In this document: one piece after another, positions 1,315 through 17,264 of the stretch
Layout of the letters: the number at the start of each line of letters is the position of its first letter
How positions within the stretch are numbered: position 1 is the stretch's first letter
NCBI GenBank assembly: GCA_905236865.1
Contig: CAJOQX010000250.1
Location: 1 to 33,641, forward strand
Length of the DNA stretch: 33,641 nucleotides
Reading direction: 5' to 3'
From: Candidatus Rifleibacteriota bacterium
GTDB lineage: Bacteria; Muiribacteriota; Ozemobacteria; Ozemobacterales; Ozemobacteraceae
The notes under the pieces: model-generated
The model's input: only the letters and a program-made list of their open reading frames with translations
What the model was told of the DNA's origin: nothing
The model's database searches: none
Position numbers and translations under genes: made by a program

Positions 1315-1351
1315 AATAAACAAAACGCTTTTAATAAGCGTTTTGTTTATT
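1315..1351. terminator. Bidirectional intrinsic terminator
   Basis: A perfect 16-bp inverted repeat (arms 1315-1330 and 1336-1351, loop TTAAT) has the core AAACGCTT/AAGCGTTT and a T-rich 3' side on each strand. It lies between two convergent genes and its right arm touches the stop codon of the giant gene at 1351, so it can end transcription from both sides. Confidence 0.9.
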
Positions 1352-4300
1352 TATTTTAATACGGCTATCTTTAAGGTTGATTTTACTTTTTTACCAGTTT
1401 CAGGATTTATTGCTTCAAGTTTAGCAATATAAGTGCCATTAGCAACTTTCTTCCCTTTTTTATTTCTTAAATCCCATCTAACTTCATAGTTTCCATCATT
1501 CTTGTCTAACACATCTGACTCATCAAAATCTGCAACTTTGTGACCTGCAACATCATAAATTTTAATTCTAATGTTGCAGTTTATTCCTGTGCTATTGGTT
1601 CTTATTCTTATAGTAACATTGTTTCTAGCTGGGTTTGGATATTGAATAATCTGTTTAAACTCAAAAGGAAGAACCAACACAAATCTCATATTGCCTGTTG
1701 ACGCAATATTTCCTGTTCTGTCTTTTGCTGTAATAGTAAGCTCATGATTACCATTAATCAATTCAGATAAAGGTTTGAATTTAAAACTACCATCAGTATC
1801 TAAACTTATTTTCTGATTAAAGTTATCTATTTTTGCTTCAATGGCATTAGTGTCAAGACCTGAACCATAATCTTTTATATTTCCTAAAAACTCTGGTCTA
1901 GCAGTTTCAAATTTTTTAGATAAATCCATTGAATCATCTAACTTGATTGACGGGGCAACATTATCACGCATAATAGCAAAGACTTTATTAGAAGTTATTC
2001 TTGCTTTGATTTTTTTATCAGTAGTGATATTAGCAGAAATAAAGTTCCATGAACCATTTTTCTGATAGAACAAACCAATTCCCGATGTTTGACTTGCTGT
2101 TTCTGGAACTTTCATCGAGGCTATTATCCCTTTGTTCACCTTTGATGAATTGATAGAGGCTTCATAAGCATCTGTAAGTGGAGTTAATTCTGAATTATTT
2201 GCTTCTTCTTCCTCTGTAGTAACAGCTGTTACACCTCTAATAGAAGCATATTCTTTTTGCAACTGAGTTTGTATTGTTCCTGTAGCCGTTTCATCTTTTA
2301 CAATAGGTCTTTGTAATATTTTTATTGTTGCTTCAGATTTTAAGCTTTTTTCATCTACAATTAAAGTGAAGTTGTCGTCTTTAGAAGAAAGTTTTAAATT
2401 AGTATTAGGTTTAGCTGTTGCAATAGCAAAACTTGCCGTATTGCTACCTTTATTCCTATTTAAATCTTCACCTTCAACCTTTAAAGTTCCAGATTGACCA
2501 TTTGATGCTTTGAGTGAAGCAGCTGCCATATATGCAAGATTGCTTGCGGTACTCTTTTGCATTGTCATTGTTATAGGAGAAGCATATCCATGAAGAATAG
2601 TAAGTGTTGGAACTTCTATCAATTCTTCATTAGATATAACTACAACAATAATATCATTTTCATTCCCTGCATTGGAGAATGCAGAAATTGTAAAACTCGG
2701 CGGAGTAACGTCACGTCCTTGGAAAGAAATACCAGCAACAGAAGTTCCACAGCCTATATTGCCAAGTTCATCTGTTACTCCAGGAGCTTTGATAGTATAA
2801 TAGGCATTTTCAATAAATGTATATGAAGCACATAGCATTACACTTGAATTATCAGATTGTAGAATAGCAGAAACGATTGGAATAATGTTTCCTGAAGCAT
2901 CTTGAACTATATAAGAAGATGGGGTTTGTGCAGATGTTTGTTCTAACTGCTGGTCAAATAATACAAGAACTTCATTTTGAGAATTTACATTTTCAAAACT
3001 AGTTCCAGTTATTGCAGGACCTCTTACATCGGCATACAAAATAGCAGTATTTGAAGTTATGGTCGAACCATAAATATTAGATAAGCTACTAGTTATCGTG
3101 AATGTATAAGAAGCTCCATCGTCCATATTTTTAGCTATAAAGGCAAGAGCTCTATCGTCTTCTATATGGATGTCACTCAATTCAATAGCTGGTTCGCAAA
3201 CAATAGGTGTCAAACCCAAAGAAGAAGGTTCTATACTATGATTAAGCCATATTTTAACAGTAGTTGATGCAGTTTGAACAGCTGGCGGCATAACTCTGAA
3301 TGGTGAAGTTACAGCCGTTGTACTAGCAATATTTTCAGAAGCATTTCCACAAATGTCTGCTACTCTAAATGTATAAACTCCATCTGCCGCTGTTTCATTA
3401 TTGGCGTTTTGTCCATTCCAATATGCTTCTAGAGTTCCACCATTATCATTTAATCCTAAACGGTTAATTCTTGTTCCGCCAATATTATAAATATCAAGAT
3501 AATAAGCACCTGTAGCAGTTAAAGGTTCTGTGGTGTCTAATGCTATAGTTAGTGGATGGGCTTCACTTGGAGCACAGTAAGTAGTTACATTAATTCCGTT
3601 GATTTTTAAAGTATATGAAGTAATTTCAGGACTTAGTGTGTCTATAATCAACTTATATAAATCTTCTGTATCTGATGCGGCAGTATTACCAGCCTGATCT
3701 ACAAGGCCTAAATAATAAACACCATCAGGCATTAAATCATCTGGATTGCCAGTGTCCCTACTATATTTACCTCTAAATGAAGTTTTCCAAGAATTACCAC
3801 TGATTGAAGTAAGAGGATAAGTGTCTGTAGATACTTCGCTTCTTACTCTTAATCTAGGATTCATATCAATAAGGTTTTTGAAAGTTACTTCAAAATTAGT
3901 ATGTCTATACGGATTCAAATAAACTACTTCAGAAGCCGTGAAATTAACACCGCCATTAATCAGCATTGATGTGTATGTTGGAATTTCACAATCAACCAAC
4001 CATTCATAACTCTTATAAGAATAATCACCGTTTATATCTGACAATCTTATTAAATAATTTGCAGAAGTAGCAACTGTAGGTTCAGTTAATGCATCCCAAG
4101 TGAATGTTGCCATTAAGTTTTCATCAATAGTTAATGGATAAGAAGCAACAAAAACTTCTTGCGGTAACTGGTCAACTGTTATTTTTTTCAAGAAATTCAA
4201 GTAAATTGTTGTAGTCGCTCCATCTGGTTCTTCTGCTAGTATAATACTCATTGTAGCAGCGTTAGGTTCAACATTAAAACTAAATACTTCATTGTAATGA

Positions 4301-7300
4301 TATTCTTCACCACTTTCTAATGTTGCACTTGCTGTAGTTTGCTGATAAGAAAAAGTATTAATTGAACTAATCTGAGGACCGCCAGATTTAACCAATATTT
4401 CACCAAAATCTGTTTCATTTCTATTTCCAGTAAGGTCTGTTCCTATAATATGGTATACGTAAGGCCCTTGGGGAATTAGGTTTTCTACTGCAACAGCCGT
4501 TTCAAATATTGCTGTATCGCTAGCTATAGTCGTTGTTGTTATATCTACAAGTCTACAAACAATTTTGTAAGAATCAGTTGCTAGTTCGAGATACTGATAA
4601 CCTTTATCAAACAATGTTTCGTCAAATTGAATGGTAAATGTCGCCATTCCAGCTTCACCAGAACTCAAATATATTTCATCTGACAAGGTGGCAACTAATA
4701 TGTTTGGTATAGTTTTGTCTATAATAAGTGTTGCACTAGCTTCAATAGCATTATCAGAAGATAAAACACTTAAATTTCCAGCCAAATCCACAGCTTCAAT
4801 ACAATAAGTTCCTTCAGGCAAATCTTCATTTAAATCATTGATTAAAACTCCATTATAAGAGTATTTATAATCACTAGATTTATCCATATCATAAGTTCTA
4901 GTCGCAATTACATCGCCTGTAGAACTAGCTATTCCAAAAGCGATTAGTCTTATTGAATCACTTGCAGTTAGATTAACATTAGCGGTTAAGCTTCCTGTTA
5001 AATCTGGATTATAGTAATATATTAATTCTGTTGAAGCACTAGAAATATCTGTCAATGTAAAACTAGATACTTTTGGAGAAACACTATCGTAAATCAAAAC
5101 AAAATTATTTGTATCTGTAGCTGTATTGTTTACAGCATCGGTAATCTTAACTGTAAATGTTCCAGAATATTCGTTTGGAGCAGCTATGGCAGCTGAAATA
5201 TCTCCAAAGAAATCAGAATCTACAGTTAATTCTGATATTCCGTCAATCACAGTAGTTATAGTTTGAGTTGCTATCTGTGTTTCAGTTCCATCAAACAATT
5301 TCAATATGTGATTTAAAGCATAAGGACCTTTATTATACTGAATTGTCATTGTTGCTACATTAGGTATAACTCTTAAACTTAAAGGAATATTTTCTAGACT
5401 ATTATCGTTAATTAAGCTTTGCTGACTTGTTAATTTAACTTCAAATTCAGGACTCTTAGAAATAACTTCAACATTTCCATAAGTTGCTGTAGCTATAAAA
5501 TTACCAGCTAAGTCTCTTGCTCCACTAACTATGATACTTGCAGTTCCAACAGGGAAATCAGTGGTATCAAATACGCCATTAGTTATGAAATAACACTTTT
5601 GATAGCCATCCCAAGTATCGAATGTTAGAGTTGCTACTTCTCCTGTATCTGTTGCCAAAAGCACTATCGGTGTAGCAGTGTTTATATTCATTATTTCATT
5701 AAATTCTACTAAAATCCTAGCATCTTTGCCTATTGTTGTTAATACGTTATCTATTTCATCTACAGCTTGAGCTGAACTTACCAAAGGTTCAACGTTATCA
5801 ACCATAAGTGTTATGGAAGCTGCTGTATTGATGTTGCCTGCCAAATCTGAAATATTAATAGTATTAGTTCCATTATTTAAATCGTTACCAAAGCTAATAA
5901 TAAAACTGCTAGTAGCTGGTATAAGGTAAGTGCTGGTTGCTGTCGAAGAAGCTATCAATACTAAATCTGTAGTTTCATCTGTAGTTATACTGAATGTGGC
6001 TGGAATAGACGGACTGTAGTATTTTATTCCATCATAGATTTGTCCAATTTCTCCATCATCGAAATCTATTGATGTGATTTCTGGAACAGTTGTATCTGTG
6101 CTGAAAGTCCATGAAAGATAACCATCTTCTGAACCATAATTACCCAAAGTATCTATAATATTGAAATGGTAAGTGTTATTACCAGCTGGTATATCTCCAG
6201 CATTCCAAGTTACATAACCAGGATTACCTACTGTTACAGCAAAAGTTGCTATATTTTCATCATTTGAATCGTAAACTAATAGTTGATGAGGCGTATTGAA
6301 AGGTCCGCTAACATAATCTAGTTTAATAGTTACTGAAGCGGCATCTCCTGTATTGTATTTCGTTGGATTGAAATCTCTGTTTTCAAGGACATCAACACCG
6401 CTAATATCTGGCTGTAAAGTAAGTATTGTAAAATCAATTACTCCAGGACCTTCAGGATGTATATATGTAGTACAAGTTGCTGGAGTTTCCCAAATTTCGT
6501 TTCCTGCTAAGTCTCTTGCATAGCTTACATAATACCTATAAATACCTACTGGGAATGTTGAAACAATATTTACAGAGTTCGTAAACGAAGCTGTCATTCT
6601 ATCTTCGTTCCAACCCATAAATTTCATATCGATGGTAACATTTCTTGTTGAAGTTGCAAGAATAAGCATAGCATCTCTTGTTGTATCCATTAGTTCATTA
6701 AACTTAACAGAGAAAGTTGCCATTCCTATTTTTGTATTGCCAGTCAAATCATCAGGACCTGGTATAATTGATTCAACTGTTGGTTGGGTATTGTCTACAA
6801 CCAAAGTTAAAGGTTCTGCTAGTATATGTAAGTTACCTGCATCGTCTGCAACATAAATTTTATATGTATTTTCTTTTAAACTAGTTCCAAATATACAACG
6901 ATAAACGTTATCATAAACATAATCATTATTTACCGTCATAGTAGCAACATCTGTAGATGAAGCTATTAAAAGATTTAACGGATTGTTGATTGTTCCATTT
7001 AAGTTACCAACAAAAACCATATCGCTATATACTGTTGTGTAATAATATATTCCTTGACTTAATGTTGCTACACCATAAAGAGTCATATCATTAACTTCAG
7101 GAGCTGTAGCAAAATAATTTATTCTTCCGATCTCTCCAGTTAAATTTTCTGCATTATCAATTATTTTAACCTTTATATAAGTATTTGTTGTAGGCACATA
7201 ACTGAAATCTCCAACGTTAAATGTTGCAGTAGCATTTACTCCGTTATGAACAATAGGAGCACTACCTATTTGTTCATCAGCCGAATTATAAAAACATAGT

Positions 7301-10300
7301 GTATGAGGAAGATTTTCTATGTTAGTGTTTAAATATTTAAATGTTATTTTAGTATAATCAGGTGAGGCTTCAAAATTAAGAGGTTTATCTACTACAACAG
7401 TATTGTTGTCTATATTTTTCCTTATAGTATTAAGATGCATTGAACCACTAACTATTTTTGGAGCTTTTGATAATAAAAGCACTTCTGTATTTGAAGTAAC
7501 ATAAGGATTACCCGCCAAGTCTTGACCGCCAGATAATATATAAGTCCAAGTTCCATTCATTGTTTCTGTCGTAATAGCTTGATTATTGGTAAACACAGCT
7601 TTGGTATTATTGTTTTCCCAACGGTTTAAGGTTAGACTTATAACAGTTGAGCCTGTAGCCAGAGTAAGACTAGGAACAAAATTAGTATCCATTTCTTCAG
7701 AGTATTCAACTTCAAATTTATCTTTTCCAACAGGTGTATTTCCTAATAGTATTGGTGTAACTGTTGCCAATGGTGCAACATTATCTATAATAAATGCTGC
7801 TGAAGCAGTAGCGAAACCTGTTTCATTAGTCGAGCTACGCATATTTCTATCATAAACATAAGATGCAATTAACACTGGATTTTCATACTCAAAAATATCT
7901 TTTAATCCATAAATTCTTAGTTCAGCTGGAACTCCGTCTACATCTTTAGTAAATTCTTCTGAAGTTTTGAATGTTACTATGGTTCGTTCAACATTTCTTA
8001 CTAATCTTGTGCTCCAGCTGTAAACTGTAGCTGAAGCAATTCTGTCACCAGTGGATATTTCAAAAATACCAGCTGTTGGAGAACTGATAGTAGAAAATGG
8101 TACCGTTATTTCATCAGCTTTTTCTTTGTTTAGTTCAAAATCGAAAGTAAAATTACCTACACTATCTTTTGTAGGTGGCATATCTGATACCGATACGGCA
8201 ATTAGAGTTGCATTTTCTGTTGGAACTGATTCTACTATTTCAACTGTTCCAGGATTATTTGGTTTATATTGAGTATTGGTATTACCCCATAAATCGAAGA
8301 AAGATCCAGCATTTACTTTAAGTGCCCAATTTATAGTTGAAGCAGTATTGTAGTAATCTAGTATCTTTTCTATATCACTCTCTGTTAAAACTATTCTTAC
8401 TGTAGAACTTGCATAGTCGTTTAATTCAGCGGTAATCGAAGCACATTCTAAACTTATAGTTTGATTATTTTCCAAATTGAACAAAGTTATATTATTAAGA
8501 TGATAACTAGCACCATTTTTATTTGTAGGTGTAGGCATCTTCATTAATGGGTCTGTTTCATTGACTGTTTCAAATTCATCAGAAAACAACAAAACTCTGT
8601 CTGTAAAATAAAGCGTTAAAGTAGATGCCGAAAGATTTATTATTGGTTGAGGATCAGAATAAATATTTAATGCAGGTAAAGGATTTACTTCTCTATTGTC
8701 AGAGATTATTATAGGTGAAGAAATCGTGTATAATTCCAACTCTTTATCATAAATATTCTTTATCATTCTATTGGCTGAGGATTTTTGAGCAAATTTAAGA
8801 GTTCTCCTTAAATTATTCGTAAGTTTTGTTGCTATCCAATCTCGTCCATTATCGCCCAGTGTAATTCTTAAATCTTTTCCATCTATCCATTGACAGGTAT
8901 CTTCTTTTTGAATTACATACCAAGAATCATAAGTTACATCATTAAATTCTGTTCTTCCAGCAGGTATATCAATAAAAATTACAGCATCAGAAGCAACTAA
9001 AGTATCTGGATCCATTTCAGCCGAGAACTTAATGTCAAAATAAATTTTGTTCGGCCAATCACGAGTCATAGCAAAATTAAGTATTGTTGGAGTTTCACGA
9101 CTACTATAATCTGTAATTGTTATAGGATAAGCAGCATAAGAAGCAATCCAGTTTTCATAAAGGTCTTTTGCGGCAGCTATATCAGAATCTCTTTTTACTT
9201 CAAGATATATGGGAGCCGATGCCCAGTTTGCAACTTCTTTTTTACCTTTTGTAGATAATTCTATTTCTACTTCTTCAAAATATTCTGTCCAACTTTCAAC
9301 CAATTCTGAAGTTTCAGATAAATTTAACTTTGCATTTGCCCCAATAGGAACAGAAGCACTTCCTAAAAGTGTCCACTGGTATTTTGCTATATCTTTTACT
9401 GTTTCAGAGAAAACAACTACTAGCTTTTCACCATTATAAGTAACATTTGTTATTTCTGGTATTTTGGTGTCTATTTCTAGGGATGCTGATTCTCCACAAG
9501 GATAACCTGCTTCATCATAAATTGTTATTGGTATCGGAACATTTAAATAATCTACTTTGGTAAAAGATGCTATATCTATTCCTGTGCCAGTATTATTTGC
9601 TATTGAATTTGTTATAGAAGCAAGATAATATTTTGAATCCCAACCTATATTACTAAAATCTAATGAAGCAGTTGCTATTATTGCTCCATCTGCCAATGTA
9701 GCACTTGCTACTAATACATCCCAAGTTGCTCTATTAGTTCCAGAAGCAACATTAAATATACCAACTGCTTCTATATCAGGTAATATAGTTAATGAATAGC
9801 TAGCTATTGTTGGATATATATTTTTCACAGCAAAACTAGTTACACCTGCTGTTGGCGTTGCTATATTGCCAGCGTCATCAGATGCACTTATAATATAAGC
9901 CAAATTTTCTTTGTTAATTCTGCCCCATTTTGCCCCATTTTCAACAACATTTGATGACTTTATAACTATATCTTTTTCTAGTCTTTTCGTTGTTCTGTTA
10001 TAAGTCATTTCATAAGTCAGAGTAGCTACGTCTGGGTCTATACCTAACTCTATAGTTGCTGTTGCATCCAATGCAGCCGACATACTTGCATAGACAGTTA
10101 TAGTATCACCTATTCTTACTATATTCTCATTTTTAGGAGAAGATAAATCAGGATTTCTTTCTTTAATTTCTATTCCACATAAAGTCTCATTAATAATAGG
10201 AACTTCGCAGTCTACTGTTCTTACCGCTTGAGTATATACTGTTGCTATATTTCCATTAGAATCTCTGATTGTAGCAGGAAATTTATAATCTTCAAACTCT

Positions 10301-13300
10301 TCAGACGTTTGTGCTGTATAAGCTGTATAAGAATATTTCCAGCTTCCACCAAGGTCTGTTTCTGTTGGAACTTGTTTTTTATCCCCTCCGATTGCACTAA
10401 GATCGAATGTTACTGTTAGTTGTTCAGCAGAAGTTAATTCTATAGTAACAGGTTCAGTATAATTTTCTGTGTAATTTAATCTTTGGTTTAAAGTAATGTT
10501 GTCTGCTGTTGCAAGGAACGATTGAGGTTCGGGTGGCTTATTATCTATTTTTATTTGTCTTGTATAACTAGTTATTGAGTTGTCTTTACCATCGTAAATT
10601 GTTACTGCCCATGACGCATTAATATTGTTAAACGTACCTGTACCAATAGTCGCATTATAAGAATATACTCCTGTAGATTCTTTTTCTAATGTGACTAATC
10701 CTAGTTCTGGATTTAGCGTTGTTAAGTCTATTGTTGGAGCAACATCATCGTTTTGAGATACGTAAGCTTTGAAAGAAACGGTATCTCCTATAATTAACGG
10801 ATCTCTTCCACTTGTTCCAACAACCAAAGAACTTAAAACTGGTGGATTAAAGTCTACTTGTGGAACAGAATAACTTTCTATTCTGGTTCTATTACCAGAT
10901 TTATCATACATTGTGAAAATAAATTGATATAAGCTTTTTTCCGCCAAACCAGGTGAAGAGGTTGCTACTATAGTTGTTGTATAATTGGTTGCACTTTTTG
11001 TAAGATTTATTAAATTAGATATGGTAGGAAGCGATAATTTATTTAAATTTGAATCCAAATATTGCATTGAGCCATCTTTTAGTTTTGGTAAATAAGTTAC
11101 ATCAAGTGTAGCTGTTGCCGAGTCTTCATTATTTGTTTCTCTAGTATATGGCAAAGTAAAAGTTATTGTTTTCTTTATATTTGCATATTCTGGATATTTA
11201 TCATCTGTATCTGTATGATTTTGTAGAGTTATCTCTGGCATATCAGGATCTGGTGGGTTTTGGTCTAAGTTTGGAAAAGAAAAATAGATATTAGATATTG
11301 TATCAGTTCCTGAATTAACAGCTTTATTACCAGCATTATCCATAATTGTTACATAGAAATTTGCACCATTATTTATTGAACCAGTAGCTATTTCAAATGA
11401 GTAATTAAATTCATCTATTCCGTCATTTGACATTTCCATTACGCCATAGTTACCAAGAGCAGAAAGATCTATTCTTGCATAAACCTCGTCTTCTAAATTA
11501 TTCACTTTTACTTTAGTTGTTATGCTATCACCAATAATAATATATGGTGGGTTCTGCTGTACTGGTATTGTATTACTTTTAGAAATATATTCTGGTGGTT
11601 CATTATCTACAAGCATATTAGCTGTTGATTCTGCTTTGTTGCCGTTAATGTCTTTTGCTACCAATACAAAATCAAAAAAGTCATCGTAATGGTATTTCTG
11701 TACAGTATGCTTATATGTCCAGTTATTTTCTGAAGTTCTAGTTAAATAATGAACCCCTGTGTTATCCATTCTGCTTAAATCTACAGATACAGCATTGCTG
11801 GTAGCGTTTGCCCCCGAAATTACAGCATCAATAGATATTCTATCTTTGTGAATAATAGTACCTGCCATACCAGTATTACCTGTTACAGTAAAACTTTGTA
11901 TTACTGGTGGAACATTATCTATTAGAATTGCTGGAGTTGTATAACGGTCTATGACGGTTTCATATTGGTCTTTTGCTGTTATTTTAAAGTTTACATACCG
12001 ACCATCTATTTGAGTAGTTATACCTGCCGTATAAGTTCCAATATATTTATTTCCAGAGCCGCTGTAAATCAAAGGGAAATCGACAGGTCCGCCTATTTCT
12101 GCTAAATCTACCGAAACTGTAGTTAAATCTGTTTTTCCAGTTATTACTTCTGTCTCAAAATAAAGTAGAGAAGTTGAAGTTGCTACACTAGCTTTTTTTA
12201 AGTGTTCTGAATATATCTCTATCTTTGCATTTTTATGTTCAAATTCGCTTAAATCTATTATGTCTGCATATATTACATCTGTTGATGCAGTATTACCAAC
12301 ATCATCTTTTGCTGTAAAAGTAAAAGACATATTGTTATAATAAACAGAATTATTCTTTGGTAGTACAAATGTTTTGCTAAAATTATTTCCACCTTGATAA
12401 TCTAGTGTCAATGGGAAAGAAAGACCTTTGTTTTTTAACTCGGTACAATTAACTGTTACAGTATCATTGTCGTAATTGGTAATGGTGCACGAAAAACTCA
12501 ATATATTATTAGGCCTTGCTACAGGATTTCCAGAGGTATTTGTTACTGTTGCATTTTGTATTGTTGGTGATCTAGAATCTACATTTAAAACTAAAGTATT
12601 GTCAGCCCCTTGATAATTAGTTCTTAAACCAGCTATACTTACCATAGTTATATTACATGGGAAAGCACCTTCCAAATTAATAGGAACACTATCTATCGTA
12701 TATGTGAAAGTAGTGCCTGATTTTGTCATTGCCACATTGTTTATATTTAAATTAGGAATATTTAATGTAATAGTTTCAACATTAGCTCCATTTGTCTGTT
12801 GGGTTAATACAATTTTTTGTCCACTTTTTATTTGCTGACCACCATAAGTTGAACCTGCAACAGTTGCTGTCATCATTCCATTTCTTGTCGGATTAACATT
12901 GTCAATATAAAAAGAAGTAGCTCTAGATAAAGAGCTTGTATTATTATCGCCGTCTGTAACAGTAAACCAACAAGTTGCTGTTGAATAAGCTAAAGTACCT
13001 TGTTGTATTTGTATATTTCCATTTGCTGTTACAAGACTACCTGTTTTATTTGCTACTAAATTTGCAGGTCCATTCATAGCACCTGGAATAAAAGCTGTAA
13101 CAGCAACTTGATTGTTGTTTGCCGTAGTATTACTATTAAATTGAACTGATATAGTTACTTGAGTCCCTACTGTAGGAACAGTAACAGGCGTTATAAAACC
13201 ACAATTATTTATACCAGATATCGTCCCAAATACTGCCCCACTCATCAACAAAACAAAAAATATAGATAAAAGCAGAAGCCTTGTTTTTCTAAAAAATACA

Positions 13301-13314
13301 GAAAGAAAATACAT
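1351..13314 (-). CDS. Giant secreted Ig-like repeat protein with FlgD-like C-terminal domain
   Basis: About 3987 residues from the ATG at 13314, chosen because AGGAG lies just upstream and a signal peptide follows at once (MYFLSVFFRKTRLLLLSIFF, ending near SGAVFG); the frame stays open 16 codons further up but without those signs. The body is a chain of beta-sandwich Ig-like domains joined by 'DNxPPxI' linkers and carrying 'AxDxxGN' turns. Residues about 1-1850 hold many such units. Residues about 1845-3225 form four long super-repeats of roughly 330-360 residues (starts near 1845, 2176, 2508 and 2868), each opening with a 'P-x-V...F-x-V-x-F-x-E-x-M' SbsA/Big_5-like domain. A FlgD-type Ig domain follows near 3230. 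The extreme C-terminus (from about 3889) is a YPNPARNNVTIRI...YDVAGHKV...GTYIAKLEA domain, resembling FlgD_ig and type IX secretion C-terminal domains. It is probably a surface or extracellular adhesin or fibre. No enzyme motif was seen. The frame is intact through all 12 kb. Confidence 0.85.
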   Translation of the reverse strand: MYFLSVFFRKTRLLLLSIFFVLLMSGAVFGTISGINNCGFITPVTVPTVGTQVTISVQFNSNTTANNNQVAVTAFIPGAMNGPANLVANKTGSLVTANGNIQIQQGTLAYSTATCWFTVTDGDNNTSSLSRATSFYIDNVNPTRNGMMTATVAGSTYGGQQIKSGQKIVLTQQTNGANVETITLNIPNLNINNVAMTKSGTTFTYTIDSVPINLEGAFPCNITMVSIAGLRTNYQGADNTLVLNVDSRSPTIQNATVTNTSGNPVARPNNILSFSCTITNYDNDTVTVNCTELKNKGLSFPLTLDYQGGNNFSKTFVLPKNNSVYYNNMSFTFTAKDDVGNTASTDVIYADIIDLSEFEHKNAKIEIYSEHLKKASVATSTSLLYFETEVITGKTDLTTVSVDLAEIGGPVDFPLIYSGSGNKYIGTYTAGITTQIDGRYVNFKITAKDQYETVIDRYTTPAILIDNVPPVIQSFTVTGNTGMAGTIIHKDRISIDAVISGANATSNAVSVDLSRMDNTGVHYLTRTSENNWTYKHTVQKYHYDDFFDFVLVAKDINGNKAESTANMLVDNEPPEYISKSNTIPVQQNPPYIIIGDSITTKVKVNNLEDEVYARIDLSALGNYGVMEMSNDGIDEFNYSFEIATGSINNGANFYVTIMDNAGNKAVNSGTDTISNIYFSFPNLDQNPPDPDMPEITLQNHTDTDDKYPEYANIKKTITFTLPYTRETNNEDSATATLDVTYLPKLKDGSMQYLDSNLNKLSLPTISNLINLTKSATNYTTTIVATSSPGLAEKSLYQFIFTMYDKSGNRTRIESYSVPQVDFNPPVLSSLVVGTSGRDPLIIGDTVSFKAYVSQNDDVAPTIDLTTLNPELGLVTLEKESTGVYSYNATIGTGTFNNINASWAVTIYDGKDNSITSYTRQIKIDNKPPEPQSFLATADNITLNQRLNYTENYTEPVTIELTSAEQLTVTFDLSAIGGDKKQVPTETDLGGSWKYSYTAYTAQTSEEFEDYKFPATIRDSNGNIATVYTQAVRTVDCEVPIINETLCGIEIKERNPDLSSPKNENIVRIGDTITVYASMSAALDATATIELGIDPDVATLTYEMTYNRTTKRLEKDIVIKSSNVVENGAKWGRINKENLAYIISASDDAGNIATPTAGVTSFAVKNIYPTIASYSLTILPDIEAVGIFNVASGTNRATWDVLVASATLADGAIIATASLDFSNIGWDSKYYLASITNSIANNTGTGIDIASFTKVDYLNVPIPITIYDEAGYPCGESASLEIDTKIPEITNVTYNGEKLVVVFSETVKDIAKYQWTLLGSASVPIGANAKLNLSETSELVESWTEYFEEVEIELSTKGKKEVANWASAPIYLEVKRDSDIAAAKDLYENWIASYAAYPITITDYSSRETPTILNFAMTRDWPNKIYFDIKFSAEMDPDTLVASDAVIFIDIPAGRTEFNDVTYDSWYVIQKEDTCQWIDGKDLRITLGDNGRDWIATKLTNNLRRTLKFAQKSSANRMIKNIYDKELELYTISSPIIISDNREVNPLPALNIYSDPQPIINLSASTLTLYFTDRVLLFSDEFETVNETDPLMKMPTPTNKNGASYHLNNITLFNLENNQTISLECASITAELNDYASSTVRIVLTESDIEKILDYYNTASTINWALKVNAGSFFDLWGNTNTQYKPNNPGTVEIVESVPTENATLIAVSVSDMPPTKDSVGNFTFDFELNKEKADEITVPFSTISSPTAGIFEISTGDRIASATVYSWSTRLVRNVERTIVTFKTSEEFTKDVDGVPAELRIYGLKDIFEYENPVLIASYVYDRNMRSSTNETGFATASAAFIIDNVAPLATVTPILLGNTPVGKDKFEVEYSEEMDTNFVPSLTLATGSTVISLTLNRWENNNTKAVFTNNQAITTETMNGTWTYILSGGQDLAGNPYVTSNTEVLLLSKAPKIVSGSMHLNTIRKNIDNNTVVVDKPLNFEASPDYTKITFKYLNTNIENLPHTLCFYNSADEQIGSAPIVHNGVNATATFNVGDFSYVPTTNTYIKVKIIDNAENLTGEIGRINYFATAPEVNDMTLYGVATLSQGIYYYTTVYSDMVFVGNLNGTINNPLNLLIASSTDVATMTVNNDYVYDNVYRCIFGTSLKENTYKIYVADDAGNLHILAEPLTLVVDNTQPTVESIIPGPDDLTGNTKIGMATFSVKFNELMDTTRDAMLILATSTRNVTIDMKFMGWNEDRMTASFTNSVNIVSTFPVGIYRYYVSYARDLAGNEIWETPATCTTYIHPEGPGVIDFTILTLQPDISGVDVLENRDFNPTKYNTGDAASVTIKLDYVSGPFNTPHQLLVYDSNDENIATFAVTVGNPGYVTWNAGDIPAGNNTYHFNIIDTLGNYGSEDGYLSWTFSTDTTVPEITSIDFDDGEIGQIYDGIKYYSPSIPATFSITTDETTDLVLIASSTATSTYLIPATSSFIISFGNDLNNGTNTINISDLAGNINTAASITLMVDNVEPLVSSAQAVDEIDNVLTTIGKDARILVEFNEIMNINTATPIVLLATDTGEVATLTFDTWDGYQKCYFITNGVFDTTDFPVGTASIIVSGARDLAGNFIATATYGNVEVISKSPEFEVKLTSQQSLINDNSLENIPLSLRVIPNVATMTIQYNKGPYALNHILKLFDGTETQIATQTITTVIDGISELTVDSDFFGDISAAIAAPNEYSGTFTVKITDAVNNTATDTNNFVLIYDSVSPKVSSFTLTDISSASTELIYYYNPDLTGSLTANVNLTASDSIRLIAFGIASSTGDVIATRTYDMDKSSDYKYSYNGVLINDLNEDLPEGTYCIEAVDLAGNLSVLSSDNAIEASATLIIDKTIPNILVATLSDEIYLSSGEAGMATFTIQFDETLFDKGYQYLELATDSYKIVCRLVDITTTTIASDTAIFETAVAVENLIPQGPYVYHIIGTDLTGNRNETDFGEILVKSGGPQISSINTFSYQQTTASATLESGEEYHYNEVFSFNVEPNAATMSIILAEEPDGATTTIYLNFLKKITVDQLPQEVFVASYPLTIDENLMATFTWDALTEPTVATSANYLIRLSDINGDYSYKSYEWLVDCEIPTYTSMLINGGVNFTASEVVYLNPYRHTNFEVTFKNLIDMNPRLRVRSEVSTDTYPLTSISGNSWKTSFRGKYSRDTGNPDDLMPDGVYYLGLVDQAGNTAASDTEDLYKLIIDTLSPEITSYTLKINGINVTTYCAPSEAHPLTIALDTTEPLTATGAYYLDIYNIGGTRINRLGLNDNGGTLEAYWNGQNANNETAADGVYTFRVADICGNASENIASTTAVTSPFRVMPPAVQTASTTVKIWLNHSIEPSSLGLTPIVCEPAIELSDIHIEDDRALAFIAKNMDDGASYTFTITSSLSNIYGSTITSNTAILYADVRGPAITGTSFENVNSQNEVLVLFDQQLEQTSAQTPSSYIVQDASGNIIPIVSAILQSDNSSVMLCASYTFIENAYYTIKAPGVTDELGNIGCGTSVAGISFQGRDVTPPSFTISAFSNAGNENDIIVVVISNEELIEVPTLTILHGYASPITMTMQKSTASNLAYMAAASLKASNGQSGTLKVEGEDLNRNKGSNTASFAIATAKPNTNLKLSSKDDNFTLIVDEKSLKSEATIKILQRPIVKDETATGTIQTQLQKEYASIRGVTAVTTEEEEANNSELTPLTDAYEASINSSKVNKGIIASMKVPETASQTSGIGLFYQKNGSWNFISANITTDKKIKARITSNKVFAIMRDNVAPSIKLDDSMDLSKKFETARPEFLGNIKDYGSGLDTNAIEAKIDNFNQKISLDTDGSFKFKPLSELINGNHELTITAKDRTGNIASTGNMRFVLVLPFEFKQIIQYPNPARNNVTIRIRTNSTGINCNIRIKIYDVAGHKVADFDESDVLDKNDGNYEVRWDLRNKKGKKVANGTYIAKLEAINPETGKKVKSTLKIAVLK

Positions 13315-13498
13315 CTTTTCTCCTATTATTAGAGTTTTGCAACTCTTGTGGCATAGATCCAACTATAATAAGGTGTAGAAACTTTTAAGGTAATAGTTGT
13401 TATCTACTACCATGCAAAGCTTCACTTTGCTTACCAAGACTGATAAGCTTTTGCCACACAAAACTTAGTTTGGTGTTACCACTTTAATATTGTTCTTG
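13315..13498 (-). ncRNA. Structured 5' leader of the giant gene (possible cis-regulatory RNA)
   Basis: From the predicted transcription start (~13498) to the ATG there are about 185 untranslated bases that fold convincingly on the minus strand. A 7-bp closing stem P1 (13452-13458 with 13347-13353, TGTGGCA/TGCCACA) encloses three hairpins. P2 is 13442-13448 with 13429-13435. P3 is 13425-13430 with 13414-13419 and competes with P2 for two bases. P4 is 13404-13411 with 13389-13396 (8 bp, one G-U). Directly after P1 comes P5 (13346-13331), a 6-bp stem with a GCAA tetraloop, six bases before the AGGAG ribosome site. I could not match it to a known riboswitch class. The stems are seen; regulation is inference. 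Confidence 0.45.
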
Positions 13499-13648: not shown

Positions 13649-15322
13649 ATAAAAAGATTTTTTAAAATCTTAATCTTATTTCTTGTAGTCGGTCAACTCT
13701 TTCTAGTTGGTGCTTATATGCAGAGCAACGGCTACAAATTTGATAATCTTCCTGACTACGAAAGTTCGGAAGAAGCTTTTGATGATTTAAGAAGCACTGA
13801 AACTTACGAGTTTAGCGAGTTAGATTTATTGTCAGAAGACGAAATGCCTATTCCAGAAAATTGCGAAGATGAAGACAACTCTGATTTATCTGACCACTCA
13901 AATTTGCAAAAGCCTCAAAATGCTCCGCAATATAAACCTAACGCAAAAGAAATAGTTAAAAAAAATAAAGAAGAAGAAAAGAAAAAAGATGTAAACGTTA
14001 TTGATATCAAAATTAGACGTGAAGCCAGTTATGATATTGCAGAACTAACTATTTCAGAACCAGTTAAGATTCTTCGTAAAAATCAAGGCAATCAACTGTT
14101 GATGGTAAGAATTACTACACCTGTTAAATTGTCTGACTCAAAACTCAAGAAAAAACTAGAAGATAATTTTGAAAAAGCTTCAATCTATGAAACAGAAAAA
14201 TACACAGAAATGCTTTTCAGTTCAAATGGGAAAATTGGCAATCCTTATACTGCTTCTGATACCACTGGCATTTTCAAACTATGTATACCTTACCAAAGTA
14301 AAAAGAGCCGATTCTCTTTAAGAAAAGGTGAAGAAATTGCTGAAGGTCTAACTTACTACCATGACAGAGGAAAATCAGGAACAGGATGGTCAGATGTTCA
14401 TATTTTAAGAATCGAAGCTCTTTCAAACAATCTTCAGGTTATTCCTGCCCTTGCTAACGAAGGTTTTGCTCAAAGAGAAAGCCTATCTGCAATGGCAAGA
14501 AAAAATAAAGCTATTGCTGGAATCAACGGCAGTTATTTCACTTGGAGCGGTGATCCAATAGGAACTTTAATAATCAATAGAAAATTAATAAGTTCCCCTT
14601 TGTACAAAAGGTCAGTTTTTGGTATAACAGAAAATAATAAATTAATTTTTGGTAATCCAGACTTTTCAGGAACTCTAAGGTTTGGTAAAATATCACTAAA
14701 AATTGATGCTGTTAATCAACCAAGACGTGGAAGTTCATTGGTAGTATTTACACCAGAATATGCTGCAAGCACTCTTACTGATGAAAACGGCAAAGAGTTT
14801 GTTGTTGTAAAGGGTAAAGTGATAGGCATTTATTCTAGAAATGCTTCTATACCGCCAGATGGAGTTGTAGTTTCAGCTGGTGGACTAAAATCTTCTATGT
14901 TAAGTTCTTTGAAACTTGGTCAGACTGTCGAACTAGACTATTCTATAGACAAACCTTGGAATCGCATAAAGCATGCACTTTGTGGCGGTCCGAGACTCTT
15001 ATCTAATGGAAAAGTCAGTATAAATGGAAAAGAAGAAAAGTTTGACAACTCTATTATAAACGGAAGGCATCCTAGAACTGCTGTTGCAATGACTTTTGAC
15101 GGTGATTTATTATTAGTCGCTGTCGATGGTCGTAAAAAAGACAGTGTTGGAATGAAGCTTTCCGAACTTGCCGAATACTTACAAAGACTTGGTTGTATGC
15201 ACGCAATCAATCTTGACGGTGGTGGTTCGACAGCGATGTTTTTAAATGGTAAAATAATTAACAAACCTTCAGATGGAACGGAGCGTAGAATTTCTAATGG
15301 GATTCTCGTCACAAAAAAATAA
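13649..15322 (+). CDS. Membrane-anchored phosphodiester glycosidase-like (NAGPA/DUF2233) protein
   Basis: About 557 residues. The first in-frame ATG (13718) would cut off an obvious signal/anchor sequence (KRFFKILILFLVVGQLFLVG). The only start that keeps it is ATA at 13649, eight bases after AGAGG and shortly after an in-frame stop at 13631. Residues about 30-110 are acidic and low-complexity. A beta-rich segment follows, reminiscent of AMIN domains (IDIKIRREASYDIAELTISE). The C-terminal half is the phosphodiester glycosidase domain: GINGSYFTWSGDPIGTL, ALCGGPRLL, HPRTAVAM, LLLVAVDGR and INLDGGGSTAMFLNG. The family includes the lysosomal uncovering enzyme and bacterial exopolysaccharide/cell-wall glycosidases such as YngK/NagPA-like proteins. 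It likely acts outside the inner membrane on a sugar phosphodiester, but the substrate is unknown. It heads the plus-strand run. Confidence 0.8.
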   Translation: MKRFFKILILFLVVGQLFLVGAYMQSNGYKFDNLPDYESSEEAFDDLRSTETYEFSELDLLSEDEMPIPENCEDEDNSDLSDHSNLQKPQNAPQYKPNAKEIVKKNKEEEKKKDVNVIDIKIRREASYDIAELTISEPVKILRKNQGNQLLMVRITTPVKLSDSKLKKKLEDNFEKASIYETEKYTEMLFSSNGKIGNPYTASDTTGIFKLCIPYQSKKSRFSLRKGEEIAEGLTYYHDRGKSGTGWSDVHILRIEALSNNLQVIPALANEGFAQRESLSAMARKNKAIAGINGSYFTWSGDPIGTLIINRKLISSPLYKRSVFGITENNKLIFGNPDFSGTLRFGKISLKIDAVNQPRRGSSLVVFTPEYAASTLTDENGKEFVVVKGKVIGIYSRNASIPPDGVVVSAGGLKSSMLSSLKLGQTVELDYSIDKPWNRIKHALCGGPRLLSNGKVSINGKEEKFDNSIINGRHPRTAVAMTFDGDLLLVAVDGRKKDSVGMKLSELAEYLQRLGCMHAINLDGGGSTAMFLNGKIINKPSDGTERRISNGILVTKK

Positions 15323-15359
15323 AATAGCCACTAGGCTCATCTCTTTTATATATACAATT

Positions 15360-17264
15360 ATGGGTATATTTAAACGTCATTGCGAAACCGCAAGTTATAC
15401 GTCATTGCAAGAATATGTGGTAACGTGGCAATCCATAAAAGTTACCAATATTAAGGCAATACTCTTTGTTTTATCTTTGAGTATATCTCCTGCTTTTGCT
15501 GCCGAAGTAGAACTTTTTTCTTTAAAAGATTTGCAAATTGGTATGAAAGGCTATGGCAAAACCGTCATTTCTGGTAGAAAAATAGAAAAATTTGATGTTG
15601 AAGTTCTAGGCATTTGTGCAAATAACAAAATAAACGAAAGTAACCTTACTAATGGTAAATCAGTATTAGTAAGAGTCAGTGGTGATGTTATAAAAAGAGC
15701 TGGCGGAATTGCTGCTGGAATGAGCGGAAGCCCTGTATATATAGACAATAAACTTGTTGGTGGTATTAGTTCTGGATGGCTTATGACAGATCACACTGTC
15801 GGTTTGGTAACACCAATTGAAGAAATGCTTGAAATTTGGAATTACCCCAATCAAAATAAAAATGACAAACCCAAAAACGGTGTAAAAACGGGCAGTCTTC
15901 AAAAACATCGTTTGAAAGAACCTGTTAGAATGGGTTGCAACAAAATTGACACAATAATTGAAGCTCCTTTCGAGTTAGCAAAATCTATTATTCCCCAAAA
16001 AAATGAAGCTGTTTTCACACAAGCAGCAACTGAATTAAGAATAGATGACGTAAAAAATAGAGTTTCAGAAAGCTTAAAAGCTAGATTAAATCGTAAAAAT
16101 GTTGTTGTTTCAGATTCTAATAAAGATGAAGCTTCTGGATATTATGCCATTATTTCACCAGACTATTATGAACCTGGTTCGTCAATAGGCATACAATTAG
16201 CTAGAGGTGATATAAATGTTACCACAATAGGTACTCTTACTCATAGAGATGGAAACCGAATTTTAGGTTTAGCACATTCATTCTTAAAAAAAGGCAATGT
16301 TTCGTTTCTCTTGTCTGGTGCTTTCATTCATCATTCTTTTGGTAGCGTTCAAATGCCATTTAAAATTGGTGCTCCTACAGAAATGCTTGGAACTGTAGAA
16401 CAAGACAGAGAAAAAGGGATAAGTGCTGTAATAGGCAAATTACCAGCAATGATTCCTATCAAAATTGATATTAACGATAAAAATATTGGACAAGAAAGAA
16501 GTATCAATTATCAAGTTGTAAGAGATATTTCTGTTTTGAATACAGTTTTAGACACAACAATAATGCAAGCTTTAGAAGGTGGAATAGACAGAGAAGGACC
16601 TGGAACAGCTCTAATGAGTATATCAATGGATTGTGCAAGTAAGAGCGGTGAAAACTACAGCTTTAGACGAGAAAACCTTTTCTATTCTAAATCGGATATT
16701 TGCCAAGTAATTACAAACGAAGTTACAAGTCTTGTAGATATGATTTGCGAAAGCGAATATGATGAAGTTATGCCTACAAGAATCCTTCTAAAGATAGAAA
16801 TAGAAAAGAAACGCAGAACTTTATCTATAGAAAAAGTCGAAGTTAAAAATTCTTCTATTTCTAGTGGAGGAGTTTTAGACGTAGAAGTGACTTTAAAACC
16901 TTTTAGAGAACCAAAATTTATTAGAAAAGTCAAACTGCCTATTCCTCAAGATATAGGAAAAGAAACTTTGACTCTTTCAGTATTTGGCTTGAATAGCAAG
17001 ATTGAAGACCTAGATGCGACAGCAGAATCCAAAGATTCTAAAACTAGCTCCTTCAAATCTGAAGAAAACGTTGCTCTTGATTTTTCATCAGTTATAAGAA
17101 ATTGGGCTAGCTCACCGAAAAATTCTGATATACTATTTCAGATAACAATTGATGGTGATGAAAATAAAAAGCTTAAAATGAACAATAAAGATTATGAAAT
17201 TCAACCAACAAATCAAGTTGTTACAGGCAGAGTCGATACGACACTGACTTTAAGCGAGGAGTAA
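15360..17264 (+). CDS. SpoIVB-like peptidase S55 domain protein
   Basis: About 634 residues from the ATG at 15360; the frame stays open back to 15273, overlapping the preceding gene. The S55 signature is visible: GIAAGMSGSPVYIDNKLVGG (serine motif near residue 122) and RILGLAHSFL (histidine near residue 306). SpoIVB-type peptidases use such a Ser/His pair to cut secreted or membrane substrates. In this non-sporulating-looking context it is probably a periplasmic protease or a structural relative. A hydrophobic segment (ILFVLSLSISPAFA) forms the signal peptide. Codons 6-25 are foreign-looking: a 60-bp palindromic repeat inserted exactly in frame (see its entry). The stop is one base before the mlaE-like ATG, so the two are translationally linked. 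Confidence 0.8.
   Translation: MGIFKRHCETASYTSLQEYVVTWQSIKVTNIKAILFVLSLSISPAFAAEVELFSLKDLQIGMKGYGKTVISGRKIEKFDVEVLGICANNKINESNLTNGKSVLVRVSGDVIKRAGGIAAGMSGSPVYIDNKLVGGISSGWLMTDHTVGLVTPIEEMLEIWNYPNQNKNDKPKNGVKTGSLQKHRLKEPVRMGCNKIDTIIEAPFELAKSIIPQKNEAVFTQAATELRIDDVKNRVSESLKARLNRKNVVVSDSNKDEASGYYAIISPDYYEPGSSIGIQLARGDINVTTIGTLTHRDGNRILGLAHSFLKKGNVSFLLSGAFIHHSFGSVQMPFKIGAPTEMLGTVEQDREKGISAVIGKLPAMIPIKIDINDKNIGQERSINYQVVRDISVLNTVLDTTIMQALEGGIDREGPGTALMSISMDCASKSGENYSFRRENLFYSKSDICQVITNEVTSLVDMICESEYDEVMPTRILLKIEIEKKRRTLSIEKVEVKNSSISSGGVLDVEVTLKPFREPKFIRKVKLPIPQDIGKETLTLSVFGLNSKIEDLDATAESKDSKTSSFKSEENVALDFSSVIRNWASSPKNSDILFQITIDGDENKKLKMNNKDYEIQPTNQVVTGRVDTTLTLSEE
15375..15434 (+). repeat. In-frame palindromic repeat element inside the S55 gene
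   Basis: Sixty bases beginning CGTCATTGCG and ending GTGGCAATCC, the ends typical of dispersed palindromic repeats seen in many bacterial genomes. Inside, ACGTCATTGC occurs twice (15374-15383 and 15399-15408). TTGCG-AAAC-CGCAA forms one hairpin, and ATTGC pairs with the terminal GCAAT. The length is exactly 20 codons and it begins on a codon boundary. Removing it joins MGIFK directly to IKVTNIKAILF and restores an ordinary signal peptide. No second copy was found in the window. Confidence 0.7.

Follow-up and report, generated by a model that had tools for sequence, protein, structure and literature searches.

CGTC-tagged REPs are old and widespread. Their superfamily, as given in the part of the description by Di Nocera, De Gregorio and Rocco (2013) used here, holds RPE-6 (CGTC-1) and RPE-4 (CGTC-4) of R. 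conorii together with dRS3 of Neisseria, and the published families 1 to 4 display a stem of 8 or 9 bp, a loop of 4 or 5 nt and, at one end, an unpaired CGTC tag or its variants TGTC and CCTC (PMC3733652). Members located within genes are already recorded there, and many of the N-terminal copies were suspected by the describers to be extragenic by reason of misannotated starts (PMC3733652). Fusion of a repeat to an export signal has a precedent in another kind of repeat, since a repeat unit fused into the predicted signal peptide was reported for YPO1552 of Y. pestis (Delihas 2007, PMC2759123).

The locus considered here is located in a window, i.e. the whole stretch of DNA analyzed, of 33,641 nucleotides. 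The host assembly is a MAG of 3.56 Mb, fragmented into 440 contigs and 79% complete. Among named genomes, its closest relatives are MAGs of Candidatus Riflebacteria obtained from the abomasum of reindeer and goat, along with RUG334, a MAG from the rumen. The explanation that we hold with good confidence is that a mobile hairpin repeat, a nested CGTC-tagged REP composite now decayed, was inserted in the coding sequence of an S55 peptidase between the conserved start and the core of the signal peptide.

A repeat copy in the S55 peptidase gene

Read from the start conserved in congeners, the S55-peptidase gene (SpoIVB-like, Pfam PF05580, E=1e-9) extends from 15297 to 17264 on the forward strand, which also carries all the other features of the locus described in this section. 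A GGAG motif at 15280-15283, conserved in the congeners by alignment, is a possible ribosome-binding site for the ATG at 15297. The gene is bordered on one side by a phosphodiester glycosidase gene (NAGPA, 13718-15322, PF09992, E=5e-42), whose stop codon and the S55 start overlap in each of the four congeners, and on the other side by an mlaE-ATPase-mlaD block; the glycosidase and S55 genes follow each other in the same order in each of these four genomes. Elsewhere in the window, the reverse strand encodes at 1351-13362 a predicted protein of 4003 aa with a signal peptide and a C-terminal motif resembling FlgD-like or sorting domains.

In an earlier note on this DNA, the protein was read from the ATG at 15360-15362 (MGIFK). 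This codon is in frame but is not the start of the congeners, since the three congener orthologues begin at the codon corresponding to ATG 15297, where they overlap the upstream gene. The window retains both this ATG and its GGAG, and no stop interrupts the frame from there through the repeat to the hydrophobic core and signal-peptide end (AILFVLSLSISPAFA, 15456-15500), with no ATG between the repeat and the core.

The repeat claimed at 15375-15434 is indeed present. This sequence of 60 nt displays CGTCATTGCG...GTGGCAATCC ends, is in phase with the S55 ORF and codes for RHCETASYTSLQEYVVTWQS. Genome matches and comparison with other composites identify it as a decayed copy of a short hairpin family in its nested composite form of 69 nt, built from CGTCATTGCGAAACCGCAAGTTATA, a short element and an outer CGTGGCAATCC end. 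The left module of 25 nt (CGTCATTGCGAAACCGCAAGTTATA, 15375-15399) holds TTGCG-AAAC-CGCAA and is common to other composites of the genome (e.g. L002, L003 and L012). The remainder, 15400-15434, comprises the inner short element, whose hairpin is mutated, and the outer 3' end. Since intact composites elsewhere in the host genome measure 67-71 nt, mostly 69, about 9 nt are missing from this copy. The repeat had also been called palindromic, a description that is strongly backed by covariation for the family as a whole but applies only weakly to this particular copy: its folding z-score is -0.32 and 64 of 200 shuffles fold equally well, which marks it as a decayed family member. Whether the element begins on a codon boundary and is exactly 20 codons long, as had been proposed, hinges on where its end is drawn. 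After ...AATC[CT], family members nearly always run on with an A (98% of 110 copies) followed by G or T; of these 110 copies, 79 display CCA as tail triplet and 29 display CTA. In view of this conservation, the end of the element probably lies at or past 15435, which is the A of the conserved CCA tail, and the 60-bp boundary is approximate.

The site of insertion was compared in the orthologues. The element and its 20 residues are absent from the three congener S55 genes, as the earlier note would predict. The congener site is nevertheless not a clean gap of 60 nt. Up to the conserved AE motif, 32-34 residues are counted in the congener signal peptides versus 70 in the window, i.e. a difference of 36-38 residues for which the element accounts for 20. 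The extra DNA amounts to approximately 110 nt, aligned as one 107-nt gap, so that once the element is subtracted about 48 nt adjoining it are left to account for. The ordinary signal peptide that had been obtained by in-silico deletion of 60 nt is therefore not supported in detail, since some 110 nt are extra relative to the congeners, and neither is the start at ATG 15360.

Structure and distribution of the hairpin family

In the host genome, family members form a short hairpin laid out as CGTCATTGCGAG-(variable stem)-CGTGGCAATCCA. The whole 60-nt query produces 38 matches in this genome, of which 20 display E < 3e-4, and the exact pattern CGTCATTGCN{5,35}GCAATCC produces 35 matches versus 0 for the reversed control. 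At least 98 copies are retrieved there with a covariance model, a lower bound as 150 of 998 candidates were scored by the model, and 60, 19 and 84 copies are retrieved in the three congeners. The earlier note had called for further copies; about 100 are thus found in the host genome, several of them in frame in genes, and this agrees with its proposal just as the orthologues free of the 20 residues do.

The stem is made of 5 outer pairs and an inner stem of 1 to 10 pairs with an unpaired stretch between them, and is closed by a loop usually of 2-4 nt; the length is 28-50 nt for short units and about 70 nt for composites. The CGTC tag starts all 24 elements of set A1 and most copies, TGTC variants being present as well, and the first two stem pairs (columns 5-34 and 6-33) are AU and UA, each in 26 of 27 cases. 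The letters of the stem vary freely yet stay paired, with 6 of 6 inner pairs changed on both sides. The covariation score of 0.494, compared to 0.184 for shuffles, is reached by none of 500 shuffles and drops to 0.10 or less when the partners are slid. Target-site duplications beyond chance-level effects were not detected at family copies, and a literature text search for CGTCATTGCGAG returned an unrelated plant microsatellite paper as its sole match. Two further arrangements were observed. An apparently triple-nested element (L015, 1501-1599), each layer having its own matching arms, suggests that repeats insert into repeats. At L004, L006, L007, L009 and L010, composites are embedded in a longer repeat common to these loci (ACGCAAACTTTTTT...GTGGCGTTGCTGAAAGCAAAACGAAGTCCATCCA); contig ends are often close by, and the longer repeat perhaps represents a larger mobile unit.

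The family is spread through a group of rumen Riflebacteria. The exact pattern was found in 45 of the 287 searched genomes and 39 of the 248 genera, with 0 control matches. A complete-looking one-contig genome of 3.9 Mb belonging to another lineage (G101) contains 412 exact matches and no match to a Y1 transposase. A single Y1 transposase gene was found in the host genome, and its surroundings are free of elements; Y1 genes occur in 12 of 15 element-bearing genomes, and elements are found within the flanks at 2 of 30 loci, both in G226. RAYT or another Y1 transposase was rejected as the mover on the basis of these three observations. Carriage by plasmids was likewise rejected, the search having given only five weak plasmid hits, in Methylocystis, Methylosinus and Halomonas.

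Copies in genes and before export signals

A survey was made of 162 distinct copies with their flanks, from listed places in four genomes. Intergenic copies are far commoner than in-gene copies; 27 ORFs of at least 140 aa hold a copy, some of these ORFs being doubtful. In-gene copies occur in several frames and several lengths, and are located inside or between Pfam domains of an HrpB-type helicase, a RecD-like helicase (two), a CoA-enzyme activase (two), a phosphopantetheinyl transferase, TsaB and others. Orthologues display the corresponding sites without the element or with its remains: the HrpB site is empty in G000 and reduced to a remnant (RHSEPLNE) in G002, both CoA activase sites are without element in the other genomes, the site is empty or partly empty in the phosphopantetheinyl transferase orthologues, and it is empty in the TsaB orthologue of G001. 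In tsaB, a short element lies in frame within the same internal loop in two species (L060, 1501-1536; L191, 1533-1568), a third species carries another insert and a fourth none. Sua5/TsaC (L225) was discarded as an in-gene case because a conserved Met downstream of the element places the latter in the 5' UTR, and two McrBC genes and a GspF-like gene (L134) were left out of the in-gene count.

Nine of the 162 copies are placed in frame at a distance of 1-17 codons ahead of a core resembling that of a signal peptide or membrane anchor. These are the S55 copy of the window and those of L044, L047, L057, L137 (two), L156, L205 and L214, so that what is seen in the S55 gene recurs in a further eight genes within the genus. 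Going upstream from the element, an ATG is reached without any stop in 9 of 9 cases, and an ATG between element and core is found in none of them, versus 23 of 24 among copies separated from such genes by a stop (Fisher p = 2.6e-7, for copies which are not all independent and were classified by a simple hydropathy rule, some possibly being membrane anchors). This contrast argues for the nine elements being located in the coding region, or having become the start, and not being part of a leader that is open by chance. In a paralogue of the L044 gene family (L158), the element is out of frame with a conserved MNNN start, maybe in a broken gene or one that restarts inside the element.

The cleanest case is L214, where a similar ribosome-binding site and start position are found in three species; in G003 the element is encountered after 10 codons of the gene, while G002 retains a shorter remnant (KPLWQSAKK) and G001 nothing. 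In two other genes the element offers a start of its own, namely GAGGAG-N9-GTG GCA ATC CAT in L057 and GTG GCA ATC CAG in L205, the latter leading to MAIQKLFLAILINLIFTSTAFA with a length close to that of its orthologues. Such comparisons suggest that these insertions are truly coding, and evidence of this kind appears to be new here. A broader proposal is put forward tentatively, as possible rather than probable: CGTC REPs may recurrently supply the front coding sequence of exported proteins, giving longer n-regions and some start codons (GTG GCA ATC CA.. in the repeat), so that a selfish hairpin would repeatedly rewrite the beginnings of signal peptides in the genus.

Interpretation and comparison with known systems

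The proposed course of events can be summarized as follows. In the S55 gene, a CGTC-REP composite would insert after the conserved start codon and ahead of the hydrophobic core that belongs to the signal peptide. Such an insertion would survive given that the repeat, in the frame used, has no stop codons and that n-regions may tolerate extra residues, and the S55 protein would then either carry a lengthened n-region or begin at a new start located within the element or close to it. We infer that the residues of the element are translated, that export continues and that the effect is near neutral; the choice of start in the S55 gene and its effect on export are to be taken in the same sense.

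Several other readings were weighed. The open frame and the intact upstream signals make it rather improbable that the start was displaced into the element, at the in-frame GTG 15417-15419 (forward strand), with a signal peptide of 28 aa, or at TTG 15405, most of the repeat then being leader RNA ahead of a normal signal peptide of 28-32 aa. Two sister cases, L057 and L205, where the element could also supply the start, speak for such a displacement, but the window has kept the conserved start undamaged together with the GGAG at 15280, no good SD lies upstream of GTG 15417 and, at 6.7% stops per codon, the 46 open codons would occur by chance with a frequency near 4%. The single 107-nt gap in congeners raises another reading, which we regard as unlikely, in which a block of about 110 nt, made of the element and an adjoining segment with a new core, came in as one unit in place of the original core, i.e. 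a replacement of the signal peptide instead of a simple insertion in its n-region. Remains of a first hydrophobic stretch (RLISFIYTIMGIF) are kept in the window before the element, which speaks for this reading; signal peptides nevertheless diverge fast and the alignment is weak in this area, a source for the extra segment was not found, and other composites end at the CCA tail.

Domestication of the element, for example as a hairpin tuning the translation of the protease or its export, could be supported by the recurrence of elements before hydrophobic cores in nine genes. It is nonetheless very unlikely, in view of a decayed copy whose fold is no better than chance, of congeners that manage without it and of the far commoner intergenic copies. 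Finally, the MAG is fragmented and repeats are often near contig ends, so an artefact of assembly or binning at the repeat was considered. On both flanks, however, the genes follow the order seen in three congeners and the overlap of stop and start is preserved, which makes a misassembled join at the element unlikely, and the 60-nt copy is unique in the host genome, the next match being 95% over 39 nt; an artefact is thus hardly credible.

Insertion of a mobile repeat within the S55 coding sequence accordingly remains the favored explanation. As the same genes provide filled, decayed and empty sites, the comparisons made here give counter-examples to the suspected misannotation of starts. The coding status of N-terminal copies, left open by the describers of the superfamily, becomes testable with four such congeneric genomes, and the n-regions of export signals are suggested to be a tolerated landing place.

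The elements share short tagged hairpins and high copy number with the GTAG-tagged REPs associated with RAYT transposases, but their tag is CGTC, and the flanking of RAYT genes by REPs is not seen here as a rule. The enterobacterial RU-1/RU-2 (ERIC, YPAL) fusions differ by their larger units, of 127-168 bp, and by a repeat that itself gives the hydrophobic residues, whereas the Riflebacteria element precedes the hydrophobic core (PMC2759123). RPE-1 is similar as a palindromic repeat found in frame in unrelated protein genes and tolerated by its host (Ogata et al. 2000, reviewed in PMC2229807); compared by size, on the basis of the portion of that review used here, RPE-1 is larger, with 105-146 bp against units of 28-50 nt and composites of about 70 nt (PMC2229807). 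Judged from sequence and predicted pairing, the family matches the CGTC-tagged REPs, with which it shares a CGTC tag at one end of a hairpin, A-T and T-A as first stem pairs, a CCA tail, and tens to hundreds of copies, mostly intergenic and some in genes, without a dedicated transposase (PMC3733652). Relative to the available part of that description, the host lineage, Riflebacteria, is new, the inner stem varies widely in length and sequence, nested composites of 67-71 nt are formed, and coding insertions at signal peptides find support in a comparison of orthologues (PMC3733652). The resemblance to Rickettsia palindromic elements pointed out in the earlier note is consequently more than an analogy, as the superfamily that includes RPE-6 and RPE-4 agrees with the present elements in the tag, in the first pairs of the stem and in the CCA tail (PMC3733652).
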